Below are positions 38,488 through 54,425 of a stretch of DNA of 64,000 bases, one piece after another. The notes beneath the pieces are model-generated. The model was given only the letters and a program-made list of their open reading frames with translations. It was not told the origin of the DNA and made no database searches. Both the position numbers and the translations under genes were made by a program. The stretch is from NCBI RefSeq assembly GCF_030345095.1, contig NZ_CP128360.1, positions 1,550,001-1,614,000 on the forward strand, read 5' to 3'. The stretch comes from Solwaraspora sp. WMMA2056 (GTDB taxonomy: Bacteria > Actinomycetota > Actinomycetes > Mycobacteriales > Micromonosporaceae). How positions within the stretch are numbered: the first letter of the stretch is position 1; each line of letters begins with the position of its first letter.

Positions 38488-39513
38488 GTGGTCGGCACGA
38501 CTACAGCACAACGGCGCCGCAGCGCGTTGGCATCGATCGTCACGCTGATCACCGCATTCGCACTCCTGTTCGGTGCGTCGGCGGCGAACGCCGCGCCCAA
38601 CGCGCCGGACGAAGGTGACGACAAGAGCCTGCGGGAAGTCCTGGAGGCCGCCTCCAAAGGCCACATCGAGGCCAAGGCCAAGCTCGACAACTCGAAGAAG
38701 CGTCAGGGCGAGCTGGCCGCCCAGTACGACGCCCTCCAGCAGCAACTAGTCGCCCTCACCGACGAGGTGGGGACGATGGCTGCCGAGTCGTACCGGCTGG
38801 GCCGATTGACCTCGGTCACCATGCTGCTCAACAGCGCCTCCCCGGAGAACATGCTGGAGCGTGCGGCCGGCCTCGAAGTGATGGCCCAACGCGAAGGCCG
38901 CAACCTGCGGGCCCTCAACGAAGCCCACGAACAGGCCGCCCGAGCCAAGGCCGCCATCGACAACGAGGTCCGCGAGCAGGAGAAACAAGTCGCCATCATG
39001 GCGCGCAAGAAACAGGACGCCCAGCGCGCCCTGGCTGCTGTCGGCAGCCAGGCAAGCGGCGGTTTCATCAGCACCACCTCGGCCGCCGCGCAGCCGGCCC
39101 CCCGAAACTCCAACGGCTCCTGGCCCTCGGAGTCCTGCAACGTCGACGACCCGACCACCTCCGGGTGCATCACCCCGCGCACCCTGCACGCCATGAACCA
39201 GGCAAAGGCGGCCGGCTTCACCCGCTACGTCTCCTGCTTCCGCAGCGGTGGCAGCGGCGAGCACCCGAAGGGTCGGGCCTGCGACTTCTCCGCCGAAGCC
39301 GGCGGCTTCAAGGACCGGGACGCGACCGGCGACAACCGTACGTACGGCAACAACCTCGCCGCGTACTACGTCAACAACGCCGATCGGCTCGGCGTGCTGT
39401 ACGTCATCTGGTACCGGCAGATCTGGATGCCCGGCAACGGGTGGAGCTCGTACAACGGCGGTGGCAGCCCGGCCGGCGACCATACCAACCACGTGCATCT
39501 GTCGATGCTCTGA
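38488..39513 (+). CDS. Secreted coiled-coil protein with peptidoglycan-hydrolase-like domain
   Basis: A 341-residue exported protein. The signal peptide spans residues about 1-37 (LASIVTLITAFALLFGASAA). Residues about 45-185 are a long coiled coil (KLDNSKKRQGELAAQYDALQ; EHEQAARAKAAIDNEVREQE-like pattern). Residues about 215-341 are an ARB_07466/VanY-like domain with GSGEHPKGRACDFSA (His and Asp metal ligands) and GDHTNHVHLS at the C-terminus. Rpf- and NlpC-type wall hydrolases of actinobacteria share this coiled-coil plus catalytic layout. AGGAGG lies eight bases before GTG 38488. The last eight codons and the stop form the first unit of a 31-bp tandem array. Confidence 0.85.
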   Translation: MVGTTTAQRRRSALASIVTLITAFALLFGASAANAAPNAPDEGDDKSLREVLEAASKGHIEAKAKLDNSKKRQGELAAQYDALQQQLVALTDEVGTMAAESYRLGRLTSVTMLLNSASPENMLERAAGLEVMAQREGRNLRALNEAHEQAARAKAAIDNEVREQEKQVAIMARKKQDAQRALAAVGSQASGGFISTTSAAAQPAPRNSNGSWPSESCNVDDPTTSGCITPRTLHAMNQAKAAGFTRYVSCFRSGGSGEHPKGRACDFSAEAGGFKDRDATGDNRTYGNNLAAYYVNNADRLGVLYVIWYRQIWMPGNGWSSYNGGGSPAGDHTNHVHLSML

Positions 39514-39667
39514 ACCAATCCACGTGCATCTGTCGATGCTCTGAACCAATCCACGTGCATCTGTCGATGCTCTGAACCAATCCACGTGCATCTGTCGATG
39601 CTCTGAACCAATCCACGTGCATCTGTCGATGCTCTGAACCAAATCCCCGTGCATCTGTCGATGCTCC
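39489..39667 (+). repeat. 31-bp hairpin-bearing tandem array
   Basis: Five units (31, 31, 31, 31 and 32 bp) and a partial sixth, nearly identical. The first unit contains the end of the wall-hydrolase gene, including its TGA. Each unit has a small hairpin GCATC-TGTC-GATGC followed by TCTGAACCAATC. The period is not a multiple of three, so the downstream units are not read in one frame. There are no spacers, so it is not a CRISPR. The array ends 67 bp before the membrane-spermidine synthase gene. Confidence 0.95.
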
Positions 39668-39733
39668 GACGCGCTGACTGGTGACTGCTGACCGCCGGCC
39701 CGGCGGGTCGGGACCTGCGTACGATCGCAGGTG

Positions 39734-41314
39734 ATGGAATCGCCACCGCCGCAGCGCGCCGACGCGCCGCCACCGCCATTACGCCCCGGACTCGCCGCCG
39801 CACTGGTCTTCGTCTCCAGCGGAGCCGTGCTCGTGCTGGAGATCGTCGCGTTGCGGCTGGTCGGCCCGTACGTCGGGGTCACCCTGCAGACCAACAGTGC
39901 GGTCATCGGCGTCGCGCTGGCCGCGATCGCGTACGGCACCTGGGCCGGCGGCCGCATCGCCGACCGCCGCGACCCGCGACCGCTGCTGCCGGCCGCACTC
40001 GTCCTGGCGGCGATCACCACCGCGGTCACCCTGCCGCTGGTGCGCTACGCCGGCGAACTGCTGCGGGGCAGCGCGATCGTCGGCATCCTGCTGCTCACCA
40101 TGGTCGCCGTGGTGCTGCCTGCGGCGCTGCTGTCGGCGGTCACCCCGCTGGTGATCAAGCTGCAGCTGGGTGACCTGAGCCGCACCGGCGAGGTCGTCGG
40201 CAAACTGTCCAGCATCGGTACGCTCGGTGCGATCACCGCCACCCTCGGCACCGGCTTCTTCCTCGTCGCGACCCTGCCCAGCAGTGTGATCATGATCGGG
40301 TTGGCGGTGCTGCTCGGTGTCGGCGGCGTGGCCCTCGGCGTACACCTGCATCGGAGCCGGCCGCCCGCGACGGGCGGTGACCTGCCGGCGGGCGACGCGC
40401 CACCGGCCGCCGGCGGTCCGCTGTCCGCCTCGACCCGGGCGACGCTCGCCGTGATCGGGCTCACCGTCGCCGGCCTGGCCGTCGTCGCGCCGGACCCGTG
40501 CGACGTGGAGACCGAGTACCACTGCGCGACCGTGCAGGCCGACCCGGACCGCGACGGCGGCCGGCTGCTGCTGCTCAACTCGGCCCGGCACTCGTACGTG
40601 GACCTTGACGACCCCACCCACCTGGAGTTCGCCTACACCAAGTGGATCGGAGCGGTCACCGACGTCGTCGCGCCGCCCGGCGAGCCGCTCGACGCCCTGC
40701 ACATCGGCGGCGGCGGGTTCACCATGCCCCGCTACCTCACCGCCACCCGGCCGGGCACCCGCAACACCGTGTACGAGATCGACGGTGGTCTGGTCGACCT
40801 GGGTGTCCGGGAGCTCGACGTGCGGCCCGGCCCGGACCTGACCGTCGCGGTCGGAGACGCCCGGGTGCTGGTCACCGACCTGCCCGGCGACAGCGTCGAC
40901 CTGGTGGTCGGCGACGCGTTCGGGCACCTGGTGGTGCCGTGGCACCTGGCCACCCGGGAGATGGCGGCGCAGGTCCGTCGGGTGCTGCGCCCGGACGGCA
41001 TCTACGCGCAGAACGTGATCGACTATCCGCCGCTGCGGTTCATCCAGGCCGAGGTGGCGACTGTGGCCGCCGAGTTCCCCGAGGTGGCGCTGGTCACCCG
41101 GCCGGACGGGTTGACGCTGCCGACCGGGAGCAACTTCGTGATCCTCGCGGCGGACCGGCCGTTGCCGCTGGACGAGATCGAGGCCAGGCTGACCGCTACG
41201 GTGGGAACTGAGTATTTGCTCCTGACCGGTGACGATCTGACTGGTTTCGTGGGCGATGCCCTGCCGTTGACCGACGACTACGCCCCGGTCGATCAACTGC
41301 TGGTTGCCCCCTGA
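39734..41314 (+). CDS. Membrane protein fused to spermidine synthase-like domain
   Basis: A 526-residue protein of the fused MFS/spermidine synthase type. About seven helices (LVFVSSGAVLVLEIVALRLV onwards, about 18-215) include EIVALRLVGPYVG, the segment typical of this family. The C-terminal half (about 255-510) has the Rossmann-like aminopropyltransferase fold: DALHIGGGGFTMPRYL, VYEIDGGLVDLGVRELDV, VAVGDARVLV, DLVVGDAFGHLVVPWHL. The glycine loop reads GGGGF rather than the catalytic GGGDG, and the second catalytic Asp is in VVGDAF. A true polyamine activity is therefore doubtful. The N-terminal Pro-rich stretch is cytoplasmic. A 31-bp repeat array lies in its leader. Confidence 0.87.
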   Translation: MESPPPQRADAPPPPLRPGLAAALVFVSSGAVLVLEIVALRLVGPYVGVTLQTNSAVIGVALAAIAYGTWAGGRIADRRDPRPLLPAALVLAAITTAVTLPLVRYAGELLRGSAIVGILLLTMVAVVLPAALLSAVTPLVIKLQLGDLSRTGEVVGKLSSIGTLGAITATLGTGFFLVATLPSSVIMIGLAVLLGVGGVALGVHLHRSRPPATGGDLPAGDAPPAAGGPLSASTRATLAVIGLTVAGLAVVAPDPCDVETEYHCATVQADPDRDGGRLLLLNSARHSYVDLDDPTHLEFAYTKWIGAVTDVVAPPGEPLDALHIGGGGFTMPRYLTATRPGTRNTVYEIDGGLVDLGVRELDVRPGPDLTVAVGDARVLVTDLPGDSVDLVVGDAFGHLVVPWHLATREMAAQVRRVLRPDGIYAQNVIDYPPLRFIQAEVATVAAEFPEVALVTRPDGLTLPTGSNFVILAADRPLPLDEIEARLTATVGTEYLLLTGDDLTGFVGDALPLTDDYAPVDQLLVAP

Positions 41315-41353
41315 CCAGGTGTAGGCCGGCGCAGATCGGGCATCTTGCGAACC

Positions 41354-43150
41354 ATGGGTGGGGTGGCGAACGATCGCGGGCAACTGCTCGGCGACCGGTA
41401 CCGGCTGATCGAACGGCTCGGCGCCGGCGGCACGTCGGTGGTGTGGCGCGGTTACGACGAGATTCTCGACCGCCAGGTGGCGGTCAAGGTACTGGCTCCC
41501 CAGTATGCCCCTGATCAGGCATTCCGCACCCGGATCCGGGTCGAGGCCCAGGCCGCCGCCCGGCTGTGCCACCCGCACATCACCAACGTCTACGACTACG
41601 GTGAGGCGCGGCGCGACGACGCCACCCTGCCGTACGTCGTGATGGAACTCGTCGACGGCGAGTCGCTGGCCGACCGGCTGCGCCGCGACCACGTCCTGCC
41701 CTGGCGGGTGGCGGTGGCCGTCTGCGCCGAGGTCGCGTCGGCGCTGGCCGCCGCGCACGCCACCGGCGTGGTGCACCGCGACGTCACCCCGGCGAACGTG
41801 ATGCTGACCAGCACCGGAGCGAAAGTCGTCGACTTCGGCATCTCCGCGTTGACCGGGGAGAGCGACGTCGGCCCGGACGGCAACCTGCTCGGCACCCCGG
41901 CGTACCTGGCTCCGGAGCGGCTCAACGGCGGGCAGGTCTCGCCGGCCACCGACGTGTACGCGGTCGGGCTGCTGCTCTACCGGTCGCTCACCGGCCGGCT
42001 GCCCTGGCCGGCGGCGAACGTCACCGAGATGCTGCGGGCGCACCTGCACACCGCGCCGGATCCGATGCCGCCGGTCGCCGGGCTGCCGGCGGAGGTGATC
42101 GGGCTGACCGTACGGTGCCTGGCGAAACGCCCGGCGGACCGGCCCACCAGCGAGGAGGTGGCGAAGACCCTGGCCGCCGCCGTCGGGGTGGCGGCAGGCC
42201 GGTCGTCGTCGACCATGGCGCTGCCGGTCCAGGCGCCGGGTGTCGACGCAGCCGACGCCGATGCCGGCCCTGGTGCCGGCCCCGATGCCGGGACCGACGG
42301 GCTCCCGCCGCTGGTCGACGTCACCTGCGGACTGGAGGTCACCGGTCTCGACCTGTCGGCGACCGACGCCTACCTGTCGACGACCGGTGCCGACCCGGCA
42401 AGGACCGACGGCGACCTGGTGGTGACCGGAGCAGTCGGCCGCGCGGCGTCGGGCCCGGTCGCCCTTTCGGCATCGGGCCCGGTCGCCGCCGCAGGACCCG
42501 CCCCGGCACCCGCCCCGGGATCCGCTGCCGCCACCGGGCCGGCGGGCGGCGCCGGCCGGCGCCGCAGACTACGTACCTCCTGGGTTCAGCGCCGGGCCGA
42601 AGCCGTCGTGATCGGCATCGGGCTGATGATGGTGAGCGCCCTGGTCTGGGCCGGTGCCGGCGCGACGCCCGCCACCGACCGGGCCAGGGAGGCCCTCGCC
42701 GCGCCACCCCGGTTGGGGCTCGCCGCCCAGACTCCGACACTGGCCGCCCAGTCGCCGGCGCCCTGCCAGGTCGACTACGCGGTGCACGCCGACGACGGTC
42801 GGCGCTTCGTCGCCGTCGCGACCGTCACCAACACCGGGTCGGCGGCCCTGACCGACTGGTCGGTGCGGTTCGCCTTCCCCGGCACCCAGCGGCTCACCGC
42901 CGTGGCCTCGGCCCAGTGGCACCAGCAGGGTCCGGACGTCGTGCTGCGACCGGTCAGCGACGGCGCGCCGCTGGCTGCCGGGGCGTCGACGGCGGTACGG
43001 CTGACCGGCGACTACCACGGCGTCAACACGCTGCCGTTGGAGTTCCACCTCGACGAACAGCACTGCGGCGTGACGGTCGCCGCGATCGCCGGGCAGTCGG
43101 CAGGTGCGCCCGATCTGCTGCACGCCGCCGTCGACACCCCGACCGACTGA
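41354..43150 (+). CDS. Ser/Thr protein kinase with extracellular CBM2-like domain
   Basis: A 598-residue transmembrane kinase. The kinase domain (about 15-275) has the glycine loop LGAGGTSVVWRG, VAVKVLA, the catalytic loop VVHRDVTPANVML and VVDFGIS. The usual HRDLKP Lys is Thr here, a change seen in some actinobacterial kinases. A Pro/Ala/Gly-rich juxtamembrane region follows, then a helix (VVIGIGLMMVSALVWAGAG, about 415-433). Outside the cell there is a CBM2-type cellulose-binding fold (about 470-575: CQVDYAVHADDG, TNTGSAALTDWSVRFAFPG, TGDYHGVNTLPLEFHL). Two of the three surface Trp of typical CBM2 are not evident. It may sense cell-wall or plant polysaccharide. The start is uncertain (41345-41363). 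Confidence 0.88.
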   Translation: MGGVANDRGQLLGDRYRLIERLGAGGTSVVWRGYDEILDRQVAVKVLAPQYAPDQAFRTRIRVEAQAAARLCHPHITNVYDYGEARRDDATLPYVVMELVDGESLADRLRRDHVLPWRVAVAVCAEVASALAAAHATGVVHRDVTPANVMLTSTGAKVVDFGISALTGESDVGPDGNLLGTPAYLAPERLNGGQVSPATDVYAVGLLLYRSLTGRLPWPAANVTEMLRAHLHTAPDPMPPVAGLPAEVIGLTVRCLAKRPADRPTSEEVAKTLAAAVGVAAGRSSSTMALPVQAPGVDAADADAGPGAGPDAGTDGLPPLVDVTCGLEVTGLDLSATDAYLSTTGADPARTDGDLVVTGAVGRAASGPVALSASGPVAAAGPAPAPAPGSAAATGPAGGAGRRRRLRTSWVQRRAEAVVIGIGLMMVSALVWAGAGATPATDRAREALAAPPRLGLAAQTPTLAAQSPAPCQVDYAVHADDGRRFVAVATVTNTGSAALTDWSVRFAFPGTQRLTAVASAQWHQQGPDVVLRPVSDGAPLAAGASTAVRLTGDYHGVNTLPLEFHLDEQHCGVTVAAIAGQSAGAPDLLHAAVDTPTD

Positions 43151-43180
43151 ATCCCGACCGCCTGACTCCCGCGCGGCGGC

Positions 43181-43225
43181 TCAGGTGGCGGCGGCTCAGG
43201 TGGCGGCGGCTCAGGTGGCGGCGGC
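43181..43225 (-). repeat. 15-bp tandem repeat carrying the trkA stop codon
   Basis: Three 15-bp units each carry the minus-strand codons GCC GCC GCC ACC TGA in frame. The stop codon of the downstream TrkA-like gene is therefore present three times in the same frame (43211, 43196 and 43181). Confidence 0.95.
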
Positions 43226-43885
43226 GAAACGCTGCACCTGTTCGGTGGTGCCGGAAACGATGAGCAGCGCACCTTCGCGCAACTCCGTCTCCCCGTCGGC
43301 GTAGCTGAACCGTTCGCCGGGCATCTTGACCCCGATCACGGTCACCCCGTACCGGGAACGGATGCCGGCGTCGGCGAGACGGCGACCCACCGTGTCGGTC
43401 GGCAGCCGGGTCTCGGCGATCGAGAATCCGTCGTCGAACTCGATGAAGTCGAGCATCTTGCTGGTGATCAGGTGCGCGACCCGGTCGCCCATGGCGGCCT
43501 CCGGATAGATCACCTGACTGGCGCCGACCGACCGCAGGATCTTGCCATGCTTGCCGGAGACCGCCTTGGCCCACACGTCGGTGACGCCGATCTCGGCGAG
43601 GCTGAGCACGGTCAGCACGCTCGCTTCGACGTCCGAACCGATGCCGACCACCACCCGTTGGAAGTCGCGCAGCCCGAGTTGCCGCAGCGTCTCGGTGTCG
43701 GTCGAGTCGGCCTGGACCACGTACGTCAACCGGTCCGCCCACCGTTGCACGATGGACTGGTTGGTGTCCACGCCGAGCACCTCGAAGCCCAACCGGAGCA
43801 TCGAATCGGCGACCTGGCCGCCGAACCGGCCGAGCCCGATGATGACGACGGTCCTGGCGGACCTGGTTGCGGTGCGGTCAGCCAA
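43211..43885 (-). CDS. TrkA/KtrA-type K+ uptake regulatory protein
   Basis: A 224-residue RCK protein. It has an N-terminal NAD-binding Rossmann domain (VVIIGLGRFGGQVADSMLRL, with the acidic EVLGVD end) and a C-terminal RCK_C domain (YGVTVIGVKMPGERFSYADG; ALLIVSGTTEQVQRFAA). It forms a ring on the cytoplasmic face of the K+ channel-like subunit and gates it with nucleotides. The gene overlaps the end of the TrkH/KtrB gene by 8 bp, so the two subunits are co-translated. The 3' end is a tandem repeat with three successive in-frame stops. Confidence 0.92.
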   Translation of the reverse strand: MADRTATRSARTVVIIGLGRFGGQVADSMLRLGFEVLGVDTNQSIVQRWADRLTYVVQADSTDTETLRQLGLRDFQRVVVGIGSDVEASVLTVLSLAEIGVTDVWAKAVSGKHGKILRSVGASQVIYPEAAMGDRVAHLITSKMLDFIEFDDGFSIAETRLPTDTVGRRLADAGIRSRYGVTVIGVKMPGERFSYADGETELREGALLIVSGTTEQVQRFAAAT

Positions 43886-45224
43886 CGATGGGTCGCTCCT
43901 CTGGATAGTGGAATCGTTTCCGTCTGGTGTTCAACGCGATCGCCGAACCCAACGTGACGCTGCCGATCCGGCCGACGAACATCAGTACGGCGAGCAGCAC
44001 CTGGGCGGTCGCCGGCAGCTCACCGGTGATCCCGGTGGACAGGCCGGCGGTGCCGAACGCCGAGGTCACCTCGTACAGTGCCTGGTCGGCGCCGACGCCG
44101 TCGGTCAGGCCGATCAGCGCCAGGGTGCCGGCACCGACCAGGGCGACGCCGATCAGCGCCACGGTGAGGGCCTGCCGCTGGCTCGCCGACGCGATCCGGC
44201 GCTGCCCGATCACCACGTCGTGTTCACCGCGCAGCTCGGACCAGATCACGAATGCGAGCAGGAAGAACGTGGTCACCTTGATGCCGCCGGCGGTGCTGGC
44301 GCTACCGCCGCCGATGAACATCATGCCGATGGAGACCAGGGTCGTCTCCTGGTTGAGCGCGCCGACGTCGACGGTGTTGAAGCCGCCGGAGCGGGTCATC
44401 ACGTCCTGGAAGAGCGCGGCCAGCACCTTGCCGGGCAGGTCCAACGGCCCCAGGGTGCGCGGGTTGGCCCATTCGAACGTCAACATCGCGACGAAGCCGA
44501 CGCCGATCAGTGACAGGGTGCCCCAGACGGTCAGCCGGGTGTGCACCGACCAGCGTCGGGGCCGGCGGCGTTCCCGGACCAGCTCGAACAGGGCGGGGAA
44601 GCCGAGGCCACCGATCACCACGGCGACGATCAGCGGTACGCAGATCCACCAGTCGCTGACGAACTGGACCAGCCCGTCGGAGTAGAGCGCGAACCCGCCG
44701 TTGTTGAACGCCTGGACCGCGTGGAACAGCCCGTACCAGAGGGCACGGCCGGGCGGGTAGTCGTAGTGCAGCCACAGCCGGGCCGCCAGGAGCACGGTGA
44801 CGGTCGCCTCGACCGCCAGCATGGTGAGCGCGATCCGCAGCAGCACCTGCCGGACGTCGGACAGGCCGAGGCTGCTCGTCTCCGCCTGCGCGGTGAGCCG
44901 GCTGCGCAGCCCGAGCCGCCGGGAGACCAGCAGGCCGAGCAGGGTGGCCATCGACATGATGCCGAAGCCCCCGGCCTGGGTGAGCACGGTGATCAGGACC
45001 AGGCCGAACGGAGTCCAGTAGGTCGAGGTGTCGGTGACCGCCAGCCCGGTCACACAGACCGCCGAGGTGGCGGTGAACAGGGCCGTGACGAACGGTGCCG
45101 GATCGGGTCCCTGCCGGCTGGCCGGCAGCATCATCAGTACGGTGCCGACGACTATCGCCCCGAGGAACGCGATCGGCACGATCCGGGCGGGGTTTCGCAG
45201 CGGCCGGCGCATCAGAGTTGTCAT
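43878..45224 (-). CDS. TrkH/KtrB-type K+ transporter subunit
   Basis: A 448-residue membrane protein with four pseudo-repeats of helix-pore-helix. The selectivity glycines are visible in TATSAVCVTGLAV, FNNGGFAL, MTRSGGFNT and TSAFGTAGLS. It carries K+ (with Na+ or H+) into the cell when assembled with the RCK subunit encoded next. Length and sequence are closer to KtrB than to the longer TrkH. ATG 45224 gives the full N-terminal helix. An ATG four codons later is an alternative. The gene pair is divergent from the GDPD gene and shares 247 bp with it. Confidence 0.93.
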   Translation of the reverse strand: MTTLMRRPLRNPARIVPIAFLGAIVVGTVLMMLPASRQGPDPAPFVTALFTATSAVCVTGLAVTDTSTYWTPFGLVLITVLTQAGGFGIMSMATLLGLLVSRRLGLRSRLTAQAETSSLGLSDVRQVLLRIALTMLAVEATVTVLLAARLWLHYDYPPGRALWYGLFHAVQAFNNGGFALYSDGLVQFVSDWWICVPLIVAVVIGGLGFPALFELVRERRRPRRWSVHTRLTVWGTLSLIGVGFVAMLTFEWANPRTLGPLDLPGKVLAALFQDVMTRSGGFNTVDVGALNQETTLVSIGMMFIGGGSASTAGGIKVTTFFLLAFVIWSELRGEHDVVIGQRRIASASQRQALTVALIGVALVGAGTLALIGLTDGVGADQALYEVTSAFGTAGLSTGITGELPATAQVLLAVLMFVGRIGSVTLGSAIALNTRRKRFHYPEERPIVG

Positions 45225-45339
45225 ACCACCGCGAACCTGGATCTTTCAGTCAGTTGCCCCGCATTCATCCGCCGGCCAGCCCACGCTCCGCCGGCCGTCG
45301 CGTTCCGGACGCCCGAGCGTCGCCCGCCCCGGCTTCACT

Positions 45340-45447
45340 GATCCCGACCGATGTCCCGTTGGGACTGATCCCGACTGATGTCCCGTCGGGACCGATCCCG
45401 ACTGATGCCCCTGCGGGACTGATCCCGACTGATGCCCTGACGGACTC
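45340..45447 (+). repeat. 27-bp hairpin-bearing tandem array
   Basis: Four 27-bp units start at 45340, 45367, 45394 and 45421. The first three contain a hairpin (GTCCC-GTT-GGGAC, GTCCC-GTC-GGGAC and a variant with GCCCC/GGGAC), followed by TGATCCCGAC. The fourth is degenerate. The array ends 24 bp before the GDPD start and is also readable as a nonapeptide repeat (IPTDVPSGP-like) in a short ORF that stops at 45463. Confidence 0.93.
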
Positions 45448-45471
45448 CATCCCGCTCATCTGAAGGAGACG

Positions 45472-46623
45472 GTGTTGTCGCGTACCCTGCCGGTCATGAT
45501 GCTCGCCGGCACCCTGCTGGCCGCCATGGCGATCCCGTCCGCTGTAAGTGCCACCGGCACCACCGGCATGACCGCAGCCACCGACGCCGCTGGTGCCGCG
45601 TCGCGCCACGGGTCGAAAGCCGAGCCGAAGCCGCTGGTCATCGCCCACCGGGGGGCCAGCGGCTATCGCCCCGAGCACACCCTGGAGGCGTACCGGCTGG
45701 CCATCCGCCAGGGCGCCGACTACATCGAACCCGACCTGGTGCCGACCGCCGACGGCGTGCTGGTCGCCCGGCACGAGAACGAGATCTCCGGCACCACCGA
45801 CGTGGCGACCCGGCCCGAGTTCGCCGACCGGCGGACCACCAAGACCATCGACGGGGTTAGCGTCACCGGCTGGTTCACCGAGGACTTCACCCTCGCCGAG
45901 CTGCGTACCCTGCGGGCCGTCGAACGACTGCCGCAGGTCCGGCCGACCAACACGGCCTTCGACGGCCAGTTCCTGGTGCCGACCCTGCAGGAGGTCATCG
46001 ACCTGGCCCGCAGCGAGAGCCGGCGACTGGGTCGGACCATCGGCATCTATCCGGAGACCAAGCACCCGACCTACTTCCGGTCGATCGGGCTGCCGCTGGA
46101 GGAGCCGCTGGTCGCCACCCTGCGACGCAACAAGTTGACCAGCCGGTCCGACGCCGTGTTCATCCAGTCGTTCGAGACGGCCAACCTGCGGGCACTCGAC
46201 ACGATGATCGACGTACGGCTGGTGCAGCTGCTCAACTCGACCGGCCGCCCGTACGACTTCACCGTCGCCGGTGACCGACGTACCTACGCCGACCTGGCCA
46301 CCCCGGAAGGGCTGCGCTGGATCGCCGGCTACGCCGACGGGATCGGCCCCAACAAGGACCTGATCGTCCCGCGGGACGCCACCGGTGCGCTGCGCCCGCC
46401 GTCCACGCTGATCCGCGACGCCCACCGGGTACGGCTGGTCGTGCACGCCTGGACGTTCCGGGCCGAGAACCAGTTCCTGGCGGCCGACCACCGCATCGGC
46501 ACCGACCCGGCCGCGCGCGGCGACATCACCAGCGAGTACGAACTCTTCTTCGGCCTCGGGCTGGACGGGCTCTTCGCCGACCACCCGGACACCGCCGTGG
46601 CCGCCCGTACCGCCATGCCATGA
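45472..46623 (+). CDS. glpQ: Secreted glycerophosphodiester phosphodiesterase
   Basis: A 383-residue exported GDPD. The signal peptide is at residues about 1-27 (LPVMMLAGTLLAAMAIPSAV). The TIM-barrel active site shows the His in VIAHRGASGYRPEHT, metal-binding YIEPDLVPTADGVLV (Glu and Asp) and the second His in ARHENEISG; PETKHP carries another metal Glu. It hydrolyses glycerophosphodiesters to sn-glycerol-3-phosphate and alcohol outside the cell. The size, and the inserted segment after DRRTTKTIDGV, fit the periplasmic GlpQ class. AAGGAG lies just before the start; GTG 45472 and TTG 45475 are both possible. A 27-bp array precedes it and a palindromic element follows. Confidence 0.93.
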   Translation: MLSRTLPVMMLAGTLLAAMAIPSAVSATGTTGMTAATDAAGAASRHGSKAEPKPLVIAHRGASGYRPEHTLEAYRLAIRQGADYIEPDLVPTADGVLVARHENEISGTTDVATRPEFADRRTTKTIDGVSVTGWFTEDFTLAELRTLRAVERLPQVRPTNTAFDGQFLVPTLQEVIDLARSESRRLGRTIGIYPETKHPTYFRSIGLPLEEPLVATLRRNKLTSRSDAVFIQSFETANLRALDTMIDVRLVQLLNSTGRPYDFTVAGDRRTYADLATPEGLRWIAGYADGIGPNKDLIVPRDATGALRPPSTLIRDAHRVRLVVHAWTFRAENQFLAADHRIGTDPAARGDITSEYELFFGLGLDGLFADHPDTAVAARTAMP

Positions 46624-46635
46624 CCCGGCTGGTCC

Positions 46636-46699: not shown

Positions 46700-46741
46700 T
46701 GATCATGGGCGGCGTGGGCGGGCGGGACCGGCGGGCCTTGC

Positions 46742-46747
46742 TACCGT
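46742..46747 (+). promoter_or_regulatory. Probable -10 of leaderless recQ transcript
   Basis: TACCGT lies seven bases before ATG 46755, and no ribosome-binding site is seen. Confidence 0.35.
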
Positions 46748-46754
46748 CGGCGGC

Positions 46755-49073
46755 ATGAGCGTCACCGTGGACCGGGAAGCGTTGCGTGAGCGTGCCGAAC
46801 AGGTGCTGCAGCGCCTCGCCGGGCCGGGCGCGCGGCTGCGCGACGACCAGTGGCGGGCGATCGAAGCGCTGGTCGTCGACCGGCGGCGGGTGCTCTGTGT
46901 GCAGCGCACCGGCTGGGGAAAGTCGGCGGTCTACTTCGTCGCCACCGCCCTGCTGCGCACGGGTGCCGCAGGCACCGCCAGCCCGGCCGCCGACGACCCG
47001 GCCCCGGCCGGGTCGTCGGCGGCCGGGGCCGGTCCGACGGTGATCGTCTCGCCGCTGCTGGCGTTGATGCGCAACCAGGTGGCGGCGGCTGAGCGGGCCG
47101 GGATCCAGGCGCGCACGATCAACTCCGCGAACCTGGAGGAGTGGGACACGATCAGCGCGGAGATCCGTGACAGCGCCGTCGACGTGCTGCTGATCAGCCC
47201 GGAACGGCTGAACAACCCGGACTTCCGGGACAACGTCCTGCCCAGCCTGGCCGCCACCACCGGGCTGCTGGTCATCGACGAGGCGCACTGCGTGTCGGAC
47301 TGGGGGCACGACTTCCGCCCCGACTACCGGCGGATCCGTACCTTCCTGCACGACCTGCGCCCCGGTACGCCGGTGCTGGCCACCACGGCCACCGCCAACA
47401 CCCGGGTCACCGACGACGTCGCCGAGCAACTCGACGCCACCAGCAGCGCCACCAGCGCCACCAACAATGCCGCCACCAGCAATGCCACCGCAGGCAGCGA
47501 CGGCGGTGATGGCGGGGCCGGGACGCTCGCGGACACGCTGGTGCTGCGCGGCCCGCTGGACCGCCAGTCGCTGCGGCTGGCCGTGCTGGACCTGCCCGGT
47601 GCCGCGCACCGGCTCGGCTGGCTCGCCGAGCACCTCGACACGCTGCCCGGCTCCGGCATCGTTTACACCCTCACCGTGGCGGCCGCCGCCGAGACCGCCG
47701 AGTTCCTGCGCTCGCGTGGTTACGCCGTCGCCGCGTACAGCGGTCAGTCCGACGACGCGCAGCGCCGCGCCGCCGAGCAGGACCTGCTGGACAACAAGAT
47801 CAAGGCGTTGGTGGCGACCTCCGCGCTCGGTATGGGCTTCGACAAGCCGGACCTCGGCTTCGTGGTGCACCTGGGCGCTCCGCCGTCGCCGATCGCCTAC
47901 TACCAGCAGGTGGGCCGGGCCGGCCGGGCGCTCGACGGCGACCGGTACGCCGACGTGGTGCTGCTGCCCGGTCCCGAGGACCAGGCGATCTGGCGGTACT
48001 TCGCCTCCCTCGCCTTTCCCCGTGAGGAGCAGGTGCGGTCGGTGCTGGCCGCTCTGGAGCAGGCCGGCCGACCGCTGTCCACCCAGGCCCTGGAGCCGCT
48101 GGTCGACCTGCGGCGGACCCGGCTGGAGCTGATGCTCAAGGTGCTCGACGTCGACGGCGCGGTCCGCCGGGTCCGCGGCGGCTGGGTCGCCACCGGGCAG
48201 CCATGGCACTACGACGCCGCCCGGCTGGAGCGGGTCGCGCAGGCGCGCGCCGCCGAGCAGCAGATCATGCGCCAGTACGCCGTACCGGCCGCCGAGACCG
48301 TGGCCGGCCGGCCGGACTGCCGGATGGAGTTCCTCCGGCACTGCCTCGACGACCCGCAGGCGCAGCCGTGCGGGCGCTGTGACCGCTGCGCCGGTGGGTG
48401 GCTACCGACCGAGGTGAGCCCGGAGGCGTTGCGTGCCGCCGAGACGTTCCTCGGCCGGGCCGGGGTCGAGATCGCCCCGAAGAAGCTCTGGCCGACCGGG
48501 CTGGAGGCGGTCGGCGTACCGCTGCGGGGCCGGATCGGCCCCGACGAGCAGGCACTGCCTGGCCGGGCCGTGGGCCGGCTGTCCGACCTGGGCTGGGGTT
48601 CCCGGCTGCGGGACCTGCTCGGGCCGGGCCGGCCGGACGCGGCGCTGCCGCCGGACGTCGCCGCCGGGGTGATCGACGTGTTGCGGGACTGGGCGCGGGG
48701 CAGCCAGCCGTGGCCGGCCCGGCCGGTGGGGATCGTGGCGGTGGCGTCGCGGACCCGCCCGCAGTTGGTGGCCAGCACCGCCGGGCGGATCGCCGAGGTG
48801 GGCCGGTTGCCGCTGCTCGGCGCGGTCGAACCGGGCTGGGCGCAGCCGCCGTCGGCTGCCGGCCGGGGCAACAGTGCGCAGCGGGTCCGTACCCTGCATG
48901 ACGCCTTCACCGCGCCGCCGGAGCTGGCCGCGGCGCTGTCCGGGCTGACCGGCCCGGTGCTGTTGGTGGACGACCTGGTCGATTCCGGGTGGACGATGAC
49001 GGTGGTGGCGCGGCTGCTGCGGCAGGCCGGCGCCCCGGCGGTGCTGCCGCTGGCGCTGGCGACGACCAACTGA
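46755..49073 (+). CDS. RecQ-family helicase fused to phosphoribosyltransferase-like domain
   Basis: A 772-residue protein. The SF2 helicase core (about 20-400) has CVQRTGWGKSAVYF (Walker A), VSPLLALMRNQV, LLVIDEAHCVSDWGHDF, LATTATAN, GIVYTLTV and YYQQVGRAGRALDG (motif VI). A zinc-binding module (about 500-545) has Cys at CRMEFLRHC, PCGRCDRC. The C-terminal quarter (about 620-770) is not the usual HRDC. It ends in VLLVDDLVDSGWTMTVVARL, the PRPP-binding motif of phosphoribosyltransferases. A Ser/Thr/Asn-rich insert (about 225-255) interrupts the helicase core. It probably unwinds recombination or repair intermediates; the added domain may bind nucleotides. The mRNA is probably leaderless. Confidence 0.9.
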   Translation: MSVTVDREALRERAEQVLQRLAGPGARLRDDQWRAIEALVVDRRRVLCVQRTGWGKSAVYFVATALLRTGAAGTASPAADDPAPAGSSAAGAGPTVIVSPLLALMRNQVAAAERAGIQARTINSANLEEWDTISAEIRDSAVDVLLISPERLNNPDFRDNVLPSLAATTGLLVIDEAHCVSDWGHDFRPDYRRIRTFLHDLRPGTPVLATTATANTRVTDDVAEQLDATSSATSATNNAATSNATAGSDGGDGGAGTLADTLVLRGPLDRQSLRLAVLDLPGAAHRLGWLAEHLDTLPGSGIVYTLTVAAAAETAEFLRSRGYAVAAYSGQSDDAQRRAAEQDLLDNKIKALVATSALGMGFDKPDLGFVVHLGAPPSPIAYYQQVGRAGRALDGDRYADVVLLPGPEDQAIWRYFASLAFPREEQVRSVLAALEQAGRPLSTQALEPLVDLRRTRLELMLKVLDVDGAVRRVRGGWVATGQPWHYDAARLERVAQARAAEQQIMRQYAVPAAETVAGRPDCRMEFLRHCLDDPQAQPCGRCDRCAGGWLPTEVSPEALRAAETFLGRAGVEIAPKKLWPTGLEAVGVPLRGRIGPDEQALPGRAVGRLSDLGWGSRLRDLLGPGRPDAALPPDVAAGVIDVLRDWARGSQPWPARPVGIVAVASRTRPQLVASTAGRIAEVGRLPLLGAVEPGWAQPPSAAGRGNSAQRVRTLHDAFTAPPELAAALSGLTGPVLLVDDLVDSGWTMTVVARLLRQAGAPAVLPLALATTN

Positions 49074-49100
49074 CCCGGCCGGGGACCGGCCACCACGAAC

Positions 49101-49132
49101 CGACCCCGCCGGGCGATCACCCGGCGGGGTCG
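49101..49132. terminator. Bidirectional hairpin terminator
   Basis: A perfect 13-bp stem (CGACCCCGCCGGG at 49101-49113 with CCCGGCGGGGTCG at 49120-49132) and a 6-nt loop lie between the convergent recQ-like and NlpC/P60 genes. The strength and position fit termination of both. Confidence 0.85.
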
Positions 49133-49152
49133 GTGTGCGGCGGTGTGGTCGG

Positions 49153-50136
49153 TCAGCCGGGCCGGCCGTAGCCCCGGATCGGCATGTAGTCGATCCGGTC
49201 GACCCGGACGACCTCGCCGTGCCGAGGCGAGTGGATCATCTGCCCGGCACCGATGTAGATCCCGACGTGCTGGATGTTGCTGTAGAAGAAGACCAGGTCG
49301 CCGGGGCGGAGCTGGTCGCGGCCGACCCGGGGGATCGCGCCGAACTGGCGGCGGGCGTTGTGCGGCAACCGTACCCCGGCCTTCGCCCAGGCAGCCGAGG
49401 TCAACCCGGAGCAGTCGTACGAGTTCGGCCCGGCCGACCCCCACCGGTACGGCTTGCCGAGCTGGGCGTGCGCGAACGCCACCGCCGCCGCTGCCGCCCC
49501 GGTGGCGGCGGCGGGCAGCCGGGTGTGCGCCGGGCTGCGGCTGGCCGCTGACGCGCCCGAGCGGTTGAGCAGGGCCTGCTGGCGGTTGCGCAGCTCGGTG
49601 AGGTGCCGGATGTCGTTCTCGATCTGCTGGCGTTTCGCCGCCAGCTGCTGCTCCTGCAGTTGCTGCTGCTCGACCAGGGTGGTCGCGGCGCGGCGGGCCG
49701 ATTCGCTGCGGTCGCGCACGTCGCGCAGGCCGGCGATGCTCCGCTCGTGGTCACGGTTGATCACGTCGGCCATCAGCAGCTGGTCGACGAAGTGTTCCGC
49801 CGAGGCGGTGGAGAGCAACGTGACGACCGGCCGGCTGCCGTTGACCCGGTAGGTGCTGGCGAGCAGCTGGCCGACCTGGTCGTGGCGGTCCGCGAGTTGC
49901 TGGTCCAGTTCGACGATGGTGGCACGGAGCCGGTCGAGCCGCTCCTGGTTGGCGTGCAGCACCACCCTGGTTTCGTTGTACTGCTCGACCACCGTCTCCA
50001 ACTGGTGGGCCGCCTGGTCGATCCGCCGGTCCAGTTCGGCAAGCGAAGCCTGCGCCTGCGCCTGGGCCGGCAGCAGCGTGGCGGTTACAGCGGTGACGAG
50101 GGCGGCTGCCCTTACTGCCAAGCTATTAACGGTCAC
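49153..50136 (-). CDS. Secreted NlpC/P60 peptidoglycan hydrolase
   Basis: A 327-residue exported endopeptidase. The signal peptide covers residues about 1-30 (RAAALVTAVTATLLPAQAQA). A long coiled coil follows (about 32-185), as in RipA-type hydrolases, where it blocks the active site or binds FtsX. The catalytic domain (about 215-327) has the nucleophile Cys in NSYDCSGLTSAAW, a His in NIQHVGIYIG and a third His in MIHSPRHGEVV. It cleaves the D-Glu-mDAP bond in stem peptides, usually at cell separation. The GTG start at 50136 has no strong ribosome site. It is divergent from the His-rich protein gene. Confidence 0.94.
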   Translation of the reverse strand: MTVNSLAVRAAALVTAVTATLLPAQAQAQASLAELDRRIDQAAHQLETVVEQYNETRVVLHANQERLDRLRATIVELDQQLADRHDQVGQLLASTYRVNGSRPVVTLLSTASAEHFVDQLLMADVINRDHERSIAGLRDVRDRSESARRAATTLVEQQQLQEQQLAAKRQQIENDIRHLTELRNRQQALLNRSGASAASRSPAHTRLPAAATGAAAAAVAFAHAQLGKPYRWGSAGPNSYDCSGLTSAAWAKAGVRLPHNARRQFGAIPRVGRDQLRPGDLVFFYSNIQHVGIYIGAGQMIHSPRHGEVVRVDRIDYMPIRGYGRPG

Positions 50137-50266
50137 AGGGGGTACAACGACCGAACGTTACGAAAGCCACGGTCATCCACCCGGCTGGTGTCCGGCGGCC
50201 GCTGAACGGCTACCGTCAGACGGGCCGGGCGCGACCTGCGACGGTGAATGTGAAGGGGCGGGCACC

Positions 50267-51187
50267 GTGACGGAGACACCGACGATGCGCCTGGCCGCGA
50301 TGGTCGGCGGCGTCGTGTTGACGCTGTTCGCCGGGTACGCGCTGGGTCGTGCCGTCGACGCCCCGACCAGCCTCGGTACGCAGGTCGCCGCCGGCTCCGC
50401 GGACCACACCCACCCGGCCGGCACCGCGCCGCACGTGCATGGCTCCGACACCGGTACGGGCACCGGCTCCGGTGCCGACGGCCAGGTCTCCGGGCTGTCG
50501 GTGAGCCTCGCCGGCTACACGCTGGTGCCGGAGCAGACCCAGCTGCCCGTCGGCGACGAGGTCGATCTGCGGTTCCGGATCGTCGGCCCGGATCAGCGAG
50601 CGGTGACCGACTTCGCGGTGGTGCACGACAAGCCGATGCACCTGATCGTGGCCCGCCGGGACCTGACCGGCTTCCAGCATCTGCATCCGGAGCTGGCGTC
50701 GGACGGCACCTGGAGCATTCCGCTGCGGCTGACCGCGCCGGGCGTCTGGCGGATGTACGGCGACTTCACCGTCACCGACCCGGCCGGTACGCCGGTGGCG
50801 TTGACGCTCGGCGTCGACCTGGTCGCGGCCGGGGACTACCAGCCGGTCGCGTTGCCGGCGGCGTCGGACACCGCCCAGGCCGGTGAGTTCACCGTACGGA
50901 TGCAGGGTGTCCCGCAGCGCGGGGTCGTCGCGCCGCTGCTGTTCCAGGTGAGCGCCGCCGACGGCGCGGCGCCGACGCTGGAGCCCTACCTGGGTGCGTA
51001 CGGGCACCTGGTGGCGTTGCGCGCCGGTGACCTCGGCTATCTGCACGTGCACCCGGAGGCCGAGCTGGTCGACGGGGCGGTGAAGTTCTGGCTGACCGCG
51101 CCGAGCGCCGGCGACTACCGGCTGTTCCTGGATTTCCAGGTGGCCGGGGTGGTGCACACCGCCGAGTTCACCGTGACGGTCAGCTGA
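50267..51187 (+). CDS. Secreted or anchored His-rich protein, possible metal binding
   Basis: A 306-residue protein with an N-terminal helix (LAAMVGGVVLTLFAGYALGR, about 8-27) acting as anchor or signal. A His-rich stretch follows (ADHTHPAGTAPHVHG), then two beta-sandwich-like segments, each with clustered His: VVHDKPMHLIVARRD with FQHLHPEL, and YGHLVALRAGDLGYLHVHPE. This pattern suggests binding of copper or another soft metal, in the manner of CopC- or cupredoxin-like proteins (inference). AAGGGG lies eight bases before GTG 50267. No metal transporter is next to it. No named family is recognised with certainty. Confidence 0.75.
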   Translation: MTETPTMRLAAMVGGVVLTLFAGYALGRAVDAPTSLGTQVAAGSADHTHPAGTAPHVHGSDTGTGTGSGADGQVSGLSVSLAGYTLVPEQTQLPVGDEVDLRFRIVGPDQRAVTDFAVVHDKPMHLIVARRDLTGFQHLHPELASDGTWSIPLRLTAPGVWRMYGDFTVTDPAGTPVALTLGVDLVAAGDYQPVALPAASDTAQAGEFTVRMQGVPQRGVVAPLLFQVSAADGAAPTLEPYLGAYGHLVALRAGDLGYLHVHPEAELVDGAVKFWLTAPSAGDYRLFLDFQVAGVVHTAEFTVTVS

Positions 51188-51203
51188 CCGCTGTCGCCGG
51201 AGG

Positions 51204-52379
51204 TCATGCGTCGCCGGAGGTCGTGCCGGCGGCGAGCAGGGTCTGCAGCCGGGGCGTCACGTTCCACTGGTCGACCAGTTCGGCGTAGGCCCGCTGGTGG
51301 GCCGGGGAGTCCGGTACGCCGCCCCGGCGGGCCCGCAGCAGCAGGTTGCGCGGGGTGTGCTGGGAGTCGATGAACTCGACGACGTCGACCCGGTAGCCGG
51401 CGGCCCGGAGCAGGGTGGCGCGCAGCGTGTCGGTGAGCACGTCGGCGAAGCGTTCGCGCAGGATGCCGGCGGAGACCAGCGGCCCGTACGGGTGGGGTGC
51501 CGGTTGGCGGCGCAGCTGTGCGGCGATGTCGTGGTGGCAGCACGGGGCAGCCAGGACCCAGCGGGCCTGCCAGGCGACGGCGCGGGCGAGCGCGTCGTCG
51601 GTGGCGGTGTCGCAGGCGTGCAGGGCGAGCACCAGGTCCGGTGGCGGGTCGACGACGGCCTGTTCGATCGTGCCGGCGACGAAGGTGACCTGGTCGGCGT
51701 AGCCGAGTTCGGCGGCGAGCGCGGTGTTGCGGCGGCGCTGGTCGGTGCGGACGTCGACGCCGGTGACGACCGGTTCGGCGCCGGCGTCGACGAGGTACCG
51801 GTAGGCGGCGAAGGTCAGGTACGCGTTGCCGCAGCCCAGGTCGACGACGCGCAGCGGCCCGGTGGGCAGCGGGTCGGGCAGGGTGGCGGCGAGGGCCCGC
51901 AGGAAGGCGTCGACCTGGCGGCGTTTCGCCGCGCTGGCCCCGATCGCGGTGAACAGCGGGTCGTCGGGGTCGAGCAGGTACTGCTTGGCCCGGTCGTGTC
52001 CGGCGGGTGCGGTGGCGGCCCGGTCCGCCGTCGACCGGTGCAGCTGGGCGGCGCCCTTCTTGGTGACCCGCAGCTGCACGGTGCTGTCGGTGGTCTCGAC
52101 GTGCCAGTTGCCGAACGGTTCGGCGAGCAGTTCGTCGACGGCGGCTTCGGCTGGTGGGCCGGGTGCGACGTTGCGGGTCAGCGGCCGGGTGCCGTCGGTG
52201 GTGACGATCTGCAGGTGGGTGCCGGCGCGCAGGGTGACCGGCCGGAGTTGGGCGCGGGTCACCGACGGGGTCCGGCCGCGTTGCCGGCCGGCGGCGACGG
52301 CCCGGGTCAGCTGCGGGCTGAGCAGCAGTGCCCGGATGTCGGCGAGTGCGTCGGTGAGGGACTGCGACATGGTTGTCAT
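51204..52379 (-). CDS. SAM-dependent methyltransferase (GSTCD/PF13679-like)
   Basis: A 391-residue protein. The C-terminal two-thirds form a class I methyltransferase: LRVVDLGCGNAYLTFAAYRY (motif I, about 190), VVTGVDVRTDQRRRN, LVLALHACDTATDDALARAV and VLAAPCCHHDIAAQLRR. The LHACD and APCCHHD motifs are typical of the family that includes human GSTCD and RRNAD1. The N-terminal 150 residues are less conserved and include a basic RVTKKGAAQLHR segment that might bind RNA. Substrate unknown. It ends 16 bp from the convergent His-rich gene and follows rhlE on the same strand (56 bp), so the two may form an operon. Confidence 0.85.
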   Translation of the reverse strand: MTTMSQSLTDALADIRALLLSPQLTRAVAAGRQRGRTPSVTRAQLRPVTLRAGTHLQIVTTDGTRPLTRNVAPGPPAEAAVDELLAEPFGNWHVETTDSTVQLRVTKKGAAQLHRSTADRAATAPAGHDRAKQYLLDPDDPLFTAIGASAAKRRQVDAFLRALAATLPDPLPTGPLRVVDLGCGNAYLTFAAYRYLVDAGAEPVVTGVDVRTDQRRRNTALAAELGYADQVTFVAGTIEQAVVDPPPDLVLALHACDTATDDALARAVAWQARWVLAAPCCHHDIAAQLRRQPAPHPYGPLVSAGILRERFADVLTDTLRATLLRAAGYRVDVVEFIDSQHTPRNLLLRARRGGVPDSPAHQRAYAELVDQWNVTPRLQTLLAAGTTSGDA

Positions 52380-52435
52380 GATCCGGGGTCCGTCCCGGCG
52401 GGCGTCGCCCGGCCCGGTCGGACCCCGGAAACTGG

Positions 52436-54232
52436 TCAGTTCTCGCTGCCGCCGCTGTCCTGGCTGGCGCTGCCGCCGCCGGCCTGGGCGCTGCCGCTGC
52501 GGGTACGCCGGCGACGTCGGCGCGGCGCGGCGCCGCCGGTGTCGGCCGCGCCGGTGAGGTGTTGGTCGGCCGTGACCTGGGTGTCGGTGGCGGTACGGGC
52601 GGCCGGGACGGCTGCGGCGGTGCTGCCGGCGGTGTCGGTGCCACCGTCGACGAGCTGACCGGCGCGGCGACGGCGGCGGGGCCGCCGCGCGCGGGTGCCG
52701 CCGGCGTCCTCGCTGGCGTCGGTCGGCGTACCGGCGGTCAGGTCGGTGTCGCCGTCGGCTGCGCCGGTGCGTGACCGGCCACCGGCCCGGGACCGGTCAC
52801 CGGAACGGTCGCTGGAGCGGGACCGGTCGCCGGAGCCGCGCCGGGAGCGGCCTTCGCCGCGCGGGCCCCGGTCGGACCGGGCGCTGGAGTCGCCGCGTCG
52901 CCGGCCACCGGGAGAGCGGCCGCCGAGGTCCTCTTCGACTTCGGCACCGAGCCCCGCGCGGGTCCGTTCGGCGCTGGGCAGCGTGCCGGAGACCTCCCGG
53001 GAGATGTCGAGGTCGGCGTAGAGGTGGTCGGAGGTGTGGTACGTCTCCGGCGGTTCGGGCATGTCCAGCCCGAGGGTCTTGTCGATGATCCGCCAGCGGG
53101 TGGTGTCCTCCCAGTCGACGAAGGTGACCGCCACTCCGGTGGCGCCGGCGCGGCCGGTCCGCCCGATCCGGTGGGTGTAGGTGTCCTGGTCTTCCGGGCA
53201 GTCGTAGTTGATCACGTGGGTGACGCCGGAGACGTCCAGGCCGCGGGCGGCGACGTCGGTCGCCACCAGGATGTCGATCTTGCCGGTACGGAAGGCGCGC
53301 AGCGCCCGTTCCCGGGCTCCCTGGCCGAGGTCACCGTGTACGGCGGCGACCGCGAAGCCACGGAAGTCGAGGTCCTCGCTGACCCGGTCGGCGGCCCGCT
53401 TGGTCCGGGTGAAGATCATCGTCAGGCCACGCTCCTCGGCCTGCAGGATCCGGGCGACGATCTCGATCTTGTTCATCGGGTGGGTGCGGTAGACCACCTG
53501 GCGGGTCAGCGGTGCCGTACCGGCGATCGTGGCGTGCCCGGCGTGGATCGTCACCGGCTGGCGCAGGAAGCGCCGGGACAGCGCGACGATCGGGTCCGGC
53601 ATGGTGGCCGAGAAGAGCATCGTCTGCCGGTCCTCGGGCAGCATCGCCAGGATCCGCTCGACGTCGTCGAGGAAGCCCAGGTCGAGCATCCGGTCGGCCT
53701 CGTCGAGCACCAGGGCCCGGATCCGGTCCAGCCGCAGCTTCTTCTGCTTGGCCAGGTCCATCAGCCGGCCCGGGGTGCCGACGAGGATCTCGACGCCGGC
53801 CTTGAGCGTCTCGATCTGCGTCTCGTAGGCGACGCCGCCGTAGATCGGCAGGACCCGGACGCCGCGCGTACTGCCGGCGGCGGCGAGGTCCTTGGCGACC
53901 TGCAGGCCGAGTTCGCGGGTGGGGACGACGACCAGGGCCTGCGGTACGCCGTCGGCGCCCTCGCCGGGGGCGAAGACCCGGTCGACAAGCGGTACGCCGA
54001 AGCCGAGGGTCTTGCCGGTGCCGGTGGGTGCCTGCCCGATCAGGTCGGTGCCGCGCAGCGCGATCGGCAGCGCGTACTCCTGGATCGCGAAGGTGTGCAC
54101 GATCCCGACCTCGGCCAGCGCGGCGACCGTTTCCGGCCGCGCGCCCAGCTGGGCGAAGGTGGGGCTGTCCGGGCGGACCGGAGGACGTTTCGCCGGCTCG
54201 TCGTCGGTGGGGATATCGGTGAAGTCAGTCAT
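52436..54232 (-). CDS. rhlE: DEAD-box RNA helicase RhlE-like
   Basis: A 598-residue RNA helicase. It has a Q motif (FAQLGARPETVAALAEVGIV), Walker A APTGTGKT, PTRELGLQVA, TPGRL, VLDEADRMLDLGF (DEAD), FSATMP, the second RecA domain with IFTRTKRAADR, ATDVAARGLDVSGV and HRIGRTGRAGATG. Residues about 395-598 are a low-complexity tail rich in Arg, Ser, Gly and Asp (GDRSRSSDRSGDRSRAGGRS) that probably binds RNA and may promote condensates. ATG 54232 is chosen from the Q-motif distance, although the ribosome site is weak. It unwinds short RNA duplexes in ribosome assembly or decay. A 27-bp hairpin array lies in its leader. Confidence 0.93.
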   Translation of the reverse strand: MTDFTDIPTDDEPAKRPPVRPDSPTFAQLGARPETVAALAEVGIVHTFAIQEYALPIALRGTDLIGQAPTGTGKTLGFGVPLVDRVFAPGEGADGVPQALVVVPTRELGLQVAKDLAAAGSTRGVRVLPIYGGVAYETQIETLKAGVEILVGTPGRLMDLAKQKKLRLDRIRALVLDEADRMLDLGFLDDVERILAMLPEDRQTMLFSATMPDPIVALSRRFLRQPVTIHAGHATIAGTAPLTRQVVYRTHPMNKIEIVARILQAEERGLTMIFTRTKRAADRVSEDLDFRGFAVAAVHGDLGQGARERALRAFRTGKIDILVATDVAARGLDVSGVTHVINYDCPEDQDTYTHRIGRTGRAGATGVAVTFVDWEDTTRWRIIDKTLGLDMPEPPETYHTSDHLYADLDISREVSGTLPSAERTRAGLGAEVEEDLGGRSPGGRRRGDSSARSDRGPRGEGRSRRGSGDRSRSSDRSGDRSRAGGRSRTGAADGDTDLTAGTPTDASEDAGGTRARRPRRRRRAGQLVDGGTDTAGSTAAAVPAARTATDTQVTADQHLTGAADTGGAAPRRRRRRTRSGSAQAGGGSASQDSGGSEN

Positions 54233-54324
54233 CTGGTGTCGGGGGTGCCCTCTCGTGGTGCGCCCCGCATGCGTCGTGAGGGCGCGAATCGGATGTCGGC
54301 GCCGCCAGGGCGCCGCTGGTGTCC

Positions 54325-54425
54325 AGTGCCGGTACGGCACCGTTTGGGTTCAGTGCCGGTACGGCACCGTTTGGGTTCAGTGCCGGTACGGCACCGTCGT
54401 GGTTCAGTGCCGGTACGGCACCGGC
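54325..54425 (-). repeat. 27-bp hairpin-bearing tandem array
   Basis: Nearly four 27-bp units start at 54325, 54352, 54379 and 54406. On the rhlE sense strand each holds a hairpin GTGCCG-TAC-CGGCAC followed by TGAACCCAAACG (or a close variant). The array is about 93 bp upstream of the rhlE start and in the same orientation as the gene. Confidence 0.95.

Follow-up and report, generated by a model that had tools for sequence, protein, structure and literature searches.

A predicted structured RNA leader of rhlE in Micromonosporaceae with a ladder of hairpins in the genus Solwaraspora

The window analysed is a 64,000-nucleotide (nt) stretch of DNA from Solwaraspora sp. WMMA2056 (contig NZ_CP128360.1), covering bases 1550001-1614000 of a 7.01-Mb genome referred to here as G000. 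Three tandem arrays are present in it where a first-pass annotation of the sequence had placed them, with a perfect hairpin inside each unit of all three. Each stands 5' of a gene on the same strand. The distance to the gene start is ~64 bp for array 1 (spermidine synthase, start at 39731), 24-37 bp for array 2 (GDPD, start at 45472; the value depends on the chosen array end) and ~91 bp for array 3 (rhlE, ATG at 54232). Here, we describe the leader of the DEAD-box helicase gene rhlE, a predicted structured RNA whose two domains are separated by array 3 (coordinates in Table 1). Six other species of the genus (G001-G006) were used for comparison, giving seven genus genomes with G000; gene order is the same in all six (tblastn of 12 window genes against the fetched stretches).

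Leaders were collected via the neighbouring DUF3107 gene, which was searched for in 121 family genomes and was present in 121/121. In total, 70 leader regions were examined (30 search loci and 40 fetched stretches; seven from the genus and 63 from outside it). The same sequence blocks were found 5' of rhlE in 30/30 of the leaders first compared. The consensus runs GCGCGCGUGCGGCCCG, a variable tip, CGUGUGGCCCGCGCC, a short linker, GCGCCC..GGGGCGC and ACCACGAGAGGGCACCC, the last directly before the rhlE start. Across 37 aligned leaders GAGAG is invariant, and the last two G of GAGAGGG are nearly so.

A covariance model (R1) was built from 37 leaders. In 57/63 non-genus leaders it matched a single contiguous RNA of 92-131 nt with an expectation value (E) below 1e-3. 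One set of 43 non-genus leaders gave 39 matches at this level (37 of them built the model); in that set L103 and L110 were weak and L107 and L108 had no match. Twenty leaders outside the model, partly from the same genera, gave 18 matches at E<1e-3, the other two scoring 0.04 and 0.26. The model was also run on 80 named loci, the best 80 of a longer list (Micromonospora, Salinispora, Plantactinospora, Dactylosporangium, Phytohabitans, Asanoa, Actinoplanes and others), some from the same genomes as the other leader sets. Here 67/80 matched at E<=0.1, 65 of these at E<1e-3, and the position was constant: rhlE was the next gene on the same strand in 67/67, at a projected distance of -32 to 98 nt. 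The 13 misses were seven Streptomyces loci, two loci without rhlE in reach, two from Hamadaea and two from Actinocatenispora. Run on 39 whole family genomes of 38 genera, R1 gave exactly one match in 23; for 22 of the 23 matches, the DUF3107 gene was on the same strand and no more than 1.1 kb away (by eye). The leader RNA is therefore taken to be widespread in the Micromonosporaceae, universality being beyond this evidence. A scan of the phylum with R1 matched 1/246 genomes; with 15 candidates scored per genome, it cannot show that the leader is absent elsewhere.

The predicted architecture consists of a closing helix P0 (in many leaders, not all), a long helix P1/P2, the linker, a hairpin P3 and the GAGAGG(G) region. 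The tip of P1/P2 shows compensatory exchanges (GC/CG, UA/GC and AU/CG). In A1, a MAFFT alignment made without the model, 98.4% of the cells were paired and covariation was 0.193, compared with 0.067 in shuffled controls (which leave the relatedness of the sequences in place) and at most 0.065 when the structure was slid. Alignment A2 (21 rows, including one reverse-strand chance match and two weak matches) gave 0.176 versus 0.069, with eight pairs changed on both sides versus 2.2; A4 gave 0.173 versus 0.068, with five such pairs versus 3.1. Both were fitted to the model, so these results lean towards it. By inspection, P0 covaries in many leaders (GCCGTGGG/CCCACGGC, GCCGCAGG/CCTGCGGC, GCCGCTGG/CCAGCGGC and GTCGTGGG/CCCACGAC). 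Conserved structure and compensatory changes, the latter mainly in P2 and P0, thus occur together, and comparative analysis identifies the rhlE leader as a structured RNA that is conserved across much of the Micromonosporaceae.

Within the genus, R1 gave two half-matches flanking the ladder in 7/7 genomes (E 2e-6 to 1e-3 in a 213-kb search). The linker measures ~8-15 nt in most genera and 115-222 nt, with the ladder, in the six genus species that were parsed; G002 was left out as the pattern did not fit. The repeat call for array 3 spans 54324-54423 (27 bp x 3.7). The six parsed linkers had minimum free energy (MFE) z-scores of -2.7 to -7.7 and held 2-7 hairpins of at least 6 bp each, counts reached by 0-18 of 500 shuffles. 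Spacing of 27 nt was found in G000 (five hairpins) and G006 (three). The last units alone come near it in G001, G005 and G004, where the upstream hairpins are irregular, and in G003 the spacing is irregular. The stems themselves vary (GGUGCCG/CGGCACU, GGCGCCG/CGGCGCC and GGCGCGCA/UGCGCGCC). From the conserved block to the ATG the distance is 330 in G002 versus 357 in G000; the difference of 27 nt equals one unit fewer. Seventeen ladder units were picked by eye (one G003 unit is of uncertain register, and unit 2 of G005 has a longer stem out of the common register). Their covariation was 0.195 versus 0.108, reached by 1/500 shuffles and at most 0.095 when slid, and 85% of the cells were paired. 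The ladder is most likely a lineage-specific, slippage-prone insert in the rhlE leader whose stems have mostly been kept.

A number of observations weigh against this account of leader and ladder. R1 had no match in 16/39 whole family genomes at the threshold used, G000 and G002 being among these because the ladder splits the model. The model-building leaders, the further leaders and the named loci overlap in genera or genomes and are therefore not independent. In A1 the covariation is confined to three P2 pairs, and changes on both sides affect three pairs, no more than in shuffles. P0 could be parsed in 48/70 leaders, several of the parses being wrong, and in L074-L077 the best P0 helix is merely 4 bp. 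Hardly any variation is seen in P3 and the GAGAGG(G) site, which leaves P3 with almost no covariation support. In the ladder, three pairs changed on both sides (reached by 54/500 shuffles) and there were six pair types (reached by 49/500), 15% of the cells were unpaired, unit 1 is imperfect in G005, G001 and G004, and in the global MFE structure of the leader in the window one ladder unit pairs with another instead of folding into a hairpin of its own. Three specific functions were considered and rejected. A conserved anti-Shine-Dalgarno switch, pairing the 5' strand of P3 with GAGAGGG, is broken in L104, L105 and L109 (by eye). Mimicry of 23S rRNA, assessed by primary sequence at the genome's 23S locus, gave no clear signal, the best value among five leader pieces being reached by 4/100 shuffles. 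A coding ladder (leader peptide) does not keep its reading frame among the seven genus genomes: no frame is open through the ladder in all of them, and the length from block to ATG modulo 3 is 0, 0, 2, 2, 2, 2 and 1. On the other side, 5/7 genus members have an open frame that overlaps or ends at the rhlE start, but among them the conserved block falls in two different frames.

Taken together, we consider it probable that array 3 is a genus-specific ladder inside a conserved rhlE leader, that this leader exerts control in cis, with feedback the likeliest form, and that arrays 1 and 2 are unrelated to it. We infer that the leader regulates rhlE under the action of RhlE or its partners, the ladder modulating the effect. 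In such a mechanism the helicase or its RNA-decay partner machinery would bind or remodel the leader, and this would alter translation or mRNA stability of rhlE. The ladder would supply extra hairpins, their copy number shifting by slippage.

A regulatory leader with an input other than the helicase (an RNA thermometer, a site for a ribosomal or cold-shock protein, or another RNA-binding protein), in which the ladder is a neutral passenger, is a possible but distinctly less probable explanation. It fits the conservation of structure beyond the ladder, the non-genus matches being contiguous and hence without a ladder inside them, and the present data name no ligand. Nothing decisive stands against it; the linkage to rhlE in 67/67 matches suits autoregulation and other inputs equally. 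We think it unlikely that the ladder is a neutral GC-rich slippage product and that the leader owes its conservation to promoter or DNA-binding sites. In its favour, G000 has many tandem arrays and the pairing in the ladder has modest statistical support, but the conserved part has compensatory changes and partner-specific pairing, which DNA-binding sites do not predict, and a ladder region with changed stems is present in 7/7 genus genomes.

The features of the window are collected in Table 1. At the putative -10 position a TAnnnT-like element is seen in most leaders (by eye). Upstream of the leader, a Crp-like palindrome (TGTGAN6TCACA) was matched at at least eight of ten positions in 32/56 leaders versus 4/56 shuffled; the rhlE leaders scanned were among L061-L110 and L162-L181.

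Table 1. Features of the window discussed in the text (coordinates are window positions).
Feature	Coordinates	Strand	Basis or remark
Gene whose 3' end is the first array 1 unit	38452-39513	+	Open reading frame; orthologues in 7/7 genus genomes
Array 1	39484-39666	+	31 bp x 5.9; tandem duplication of coding 3' end
Array 2	45337-45447	+	27-bp repeats between trkH (-) and GDPD (+)
rhlE (DEAD-box RNA helicase)	52436-54232	-	Open reading frame; orthologue search
GAGAGGG, probable Shine-Dalgarno site	54248-54254	-	37 aligned leaders
P3 hairpin GCGCCC...GGGCGC, leader 3' domain	54260-54285	-	Model half-match 54243-54319
Array 3, ladder of five hairpins at 27-nt spacing between the leader domains	54297-54423	-	Ends derived from parsed offsets
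Leader 5' domain (P0, P1, P2)	54509-54589	-	Model half-match 54477-54559
TACGAT, putative -10 element of the rhlE leader promoter	54601-54606	-	Inference
Crp-like palindrome GGTGACTCGAATCACA	54670-54685	-	Coordinates read by eye

Array 1 starts inside the upstream gene, and its first unit encodes ...NHVHLSML followed by the stop codon TGA. As this unit is coding, its 'CTGAACC' is made up of the end of a Leu codon, the stop codon and ACC. The units after the stop codon differ in number: G000 carries four clean ones and a variant; G005 and G001 have two and one, respectively, together with a decayed unit; G002 and G004 have just a decayed unit; and G006 and G003 lack units altogether. Units are 31 bp long in G000, compared with 30 bp in G001 and G005. 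In G002, G006 and G003 the coding copy reads GCACC in place of GCATC, which costs the stem GCATC/GATGC one pair. We read array 1 as a gene end that undergoes recurrent tandem duplication and not as a leader element. By crude gene calls in a 544-kb sample, three further arrays (L145 2180-2348, L149 2847-2914 and L153 4017-4113) extend over the 3' end of the gene before them. Several arrays start in 3' gene ends, as though these regions duplicated easily. A perfect 15-bp repeat of 3.5 copies at 43173-43225 overlaps the 3' end of trkA.

The repeat call for array 2 spans 45337-45434 (27 bp x 3.6). Its longest stem is an overlapping alternative, GTCGGGA-CTGA-TCCCGAC, in which CTGA forms the loop. 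The array occurs in 2/7 genus genomes, G000 (four units) and its closest relative G002 (three units); the trkH-GDPD spacer is array-free and different in the other five species. A search of 151 genomes returned G000, G002 and a weak match in G104, which belongs to another family of the order. Searched for in the same way, array 3 was found in G000 and G002, and two other family genomes, G079 and G011, gave short matches (32 and 21 bases, respectively). Both searches scored five candidates per genome, and diverged copies could escape them.

The first-pass annotation had ascribed a shared design to the three arrays, with CTGAWCC following the hairpin. Sharing of a 7-mer is often expected by chance: some 7-mer with one twofold position was common to three random hairpin-bearing units drawn from this genome in 156/600 trials. 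Arrays and motifs were counted in a 544-kb DNA sample with crude gene calls. CTGAWCC was preceded by a hairpin at 14/221 sites, eight of the 14 falling in arrays 1 and 3 and leaving 6/~210. Permuted motifs followed a hairpin at 131/4618 sites, a rate equal to that of CTGAWCC outside arrays 1 and 3. A random 27-mer contains a 5-bp hairpin in 13% of cases and a 6-bp hairpin in 4%. The stem exchange between arrays 2 and 3 that had been read as covariation compares arrays that are not homologous. The sample lists 21 tandem arrays, 12 of them at most 52% coding by its calls; the 12 include arrays 1-3 and one at 56346, which lies inside an open reading frame conserved in relatives and was probably miscalled.

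REP/MIRU-type dispersed repeats of bacteria are likewise short hairpin-bearing units. Each array here differs from them in standing at one locus: under limited candidate scoring, no second locus of any array was found in G000, each matching its own locus only, and the many genome copies of a dispersed repeat were not seen. Nor did the hairpin-CTGAWCC unit prove to be kept in relatives and frequent in the genome. The proposal of a structured leader element multiplied by slippage finds support for array 3, in the rhlE leader, and none for arrays 1 and 2, which we regard as unrelated local duplications outside any family with array 3. That all three form one family of protein-binding hairpin leaders, a view favoured by the hairpins, the same-strand gene downstream and CTGAWCC in all of them, is highly improbable given that array 1 duplicates a coding end, array 2 is missing in 5/7 genus members, motif sharing is not significant and no second genomic locus was found; a common family is refuted as far as sequence can do so.

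Thirty rhlE loci of mainly other actinomycete families were also inspected (L114-L141 among them; two are from Micromonosporaceae, and two, L129 and L131, are paralogue-like or mismatched). By eye, the rhlE leaders of other families look different from the Micromonosporaceae leader. L115-L118, from another family, have a conserved block of their own before the rhlE start (GCGAGCGGGTTCAGCGTAG...CACCGCTCAGAG, by eye); structured rhlE leaders may therefore occur beyond the Micromonosporaceae as well. A broader proposition is that rhlE of Actinomycetes in general is under translational control by leaders that read helicase activity, P0-P3 being the Micromonosporaceae form, and that in the genus of the window a ladder of 27-nt units, multiplied and renewed through slippage with most stems retained, serves as an adjustable substrate setting the response, the helicase level being tuned by the number of hairpins. 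We hold this to be doubtful, if conceivable.

Start codons were counted at 26 of these loci, the two Micromonosporaceae and two paralogue-like loci being excluded. In the 70 codons upstream, a CTG, and no ATG, GTG or TTG, had a Shine-Dalgarno-like site in 19/26 (permissive pattern). A canonical rhlE start with such a site was found in 3/26, and neither kind in 4/26. In L117, L136, L139 and L141 (4/26), the preceding stop is reached without any in-frame ATG, GTG or TTG. It seems from these sequences that rhlE starts with CTG in many actinomycete families; 'CUG start codon' was not found among the matches listed in the openly licensed literature.

Rfam 15 gave no gathering-score match in the window. 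Around the leader at E<=5 there were sub-threshold matches only, the best being naRNA4 outside the leader (E 0.0089, 28.3 of 59.5 bits). On the ladder, the sub-threshold match was a microRNA model on the opposite strand (E 0.044), and the loci of three other leaders gave one match, outside the leader (E 0.076). No description of the rhlE leader was found in Rfam 15 or among the matches listed in the openly licensed literature, and it is apparently an undescribed structured RNA with an unusual ladder variant. To our knowledge, the control of bacterial DEAD-box helicases has been worked out in few cases. Here a leader RNA is tied to one helicase gene in a family that includes Micromonospora, Salinispora and Actinoplanes, and it may help the cell to set the amount of RhlE helicase made. 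The natural series of ladders, varied in hairpin number and sequence, makes helicase feedback testable in harmless laboratory strains.

Two known systems invite comparison by description. The DEAD-box helicase gene crhR of Synechocystis has autoregulated expression according to PMC3485376; it resembles rhlE in the kind of gene, and its control is tied to its own product, although it belongs to a different phylum and the regulation of rhlE is a prediction. The rne gene of Escherichia coli, encoding RNase E, is subject to feedback through its 5' untranslated region according to PMC10989929 and PMC5874925; the likeness lies in an RNA-decay gene with cis control through the 5' leader (predicted for rhlE), whereas rne encodes a nuclease and rhlE a helicase, and the comparison carries no claim of homology. 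Without claiming membership in either, we suggest by analogy that the rhlE leader parallels the CrhR and RNase E systems.

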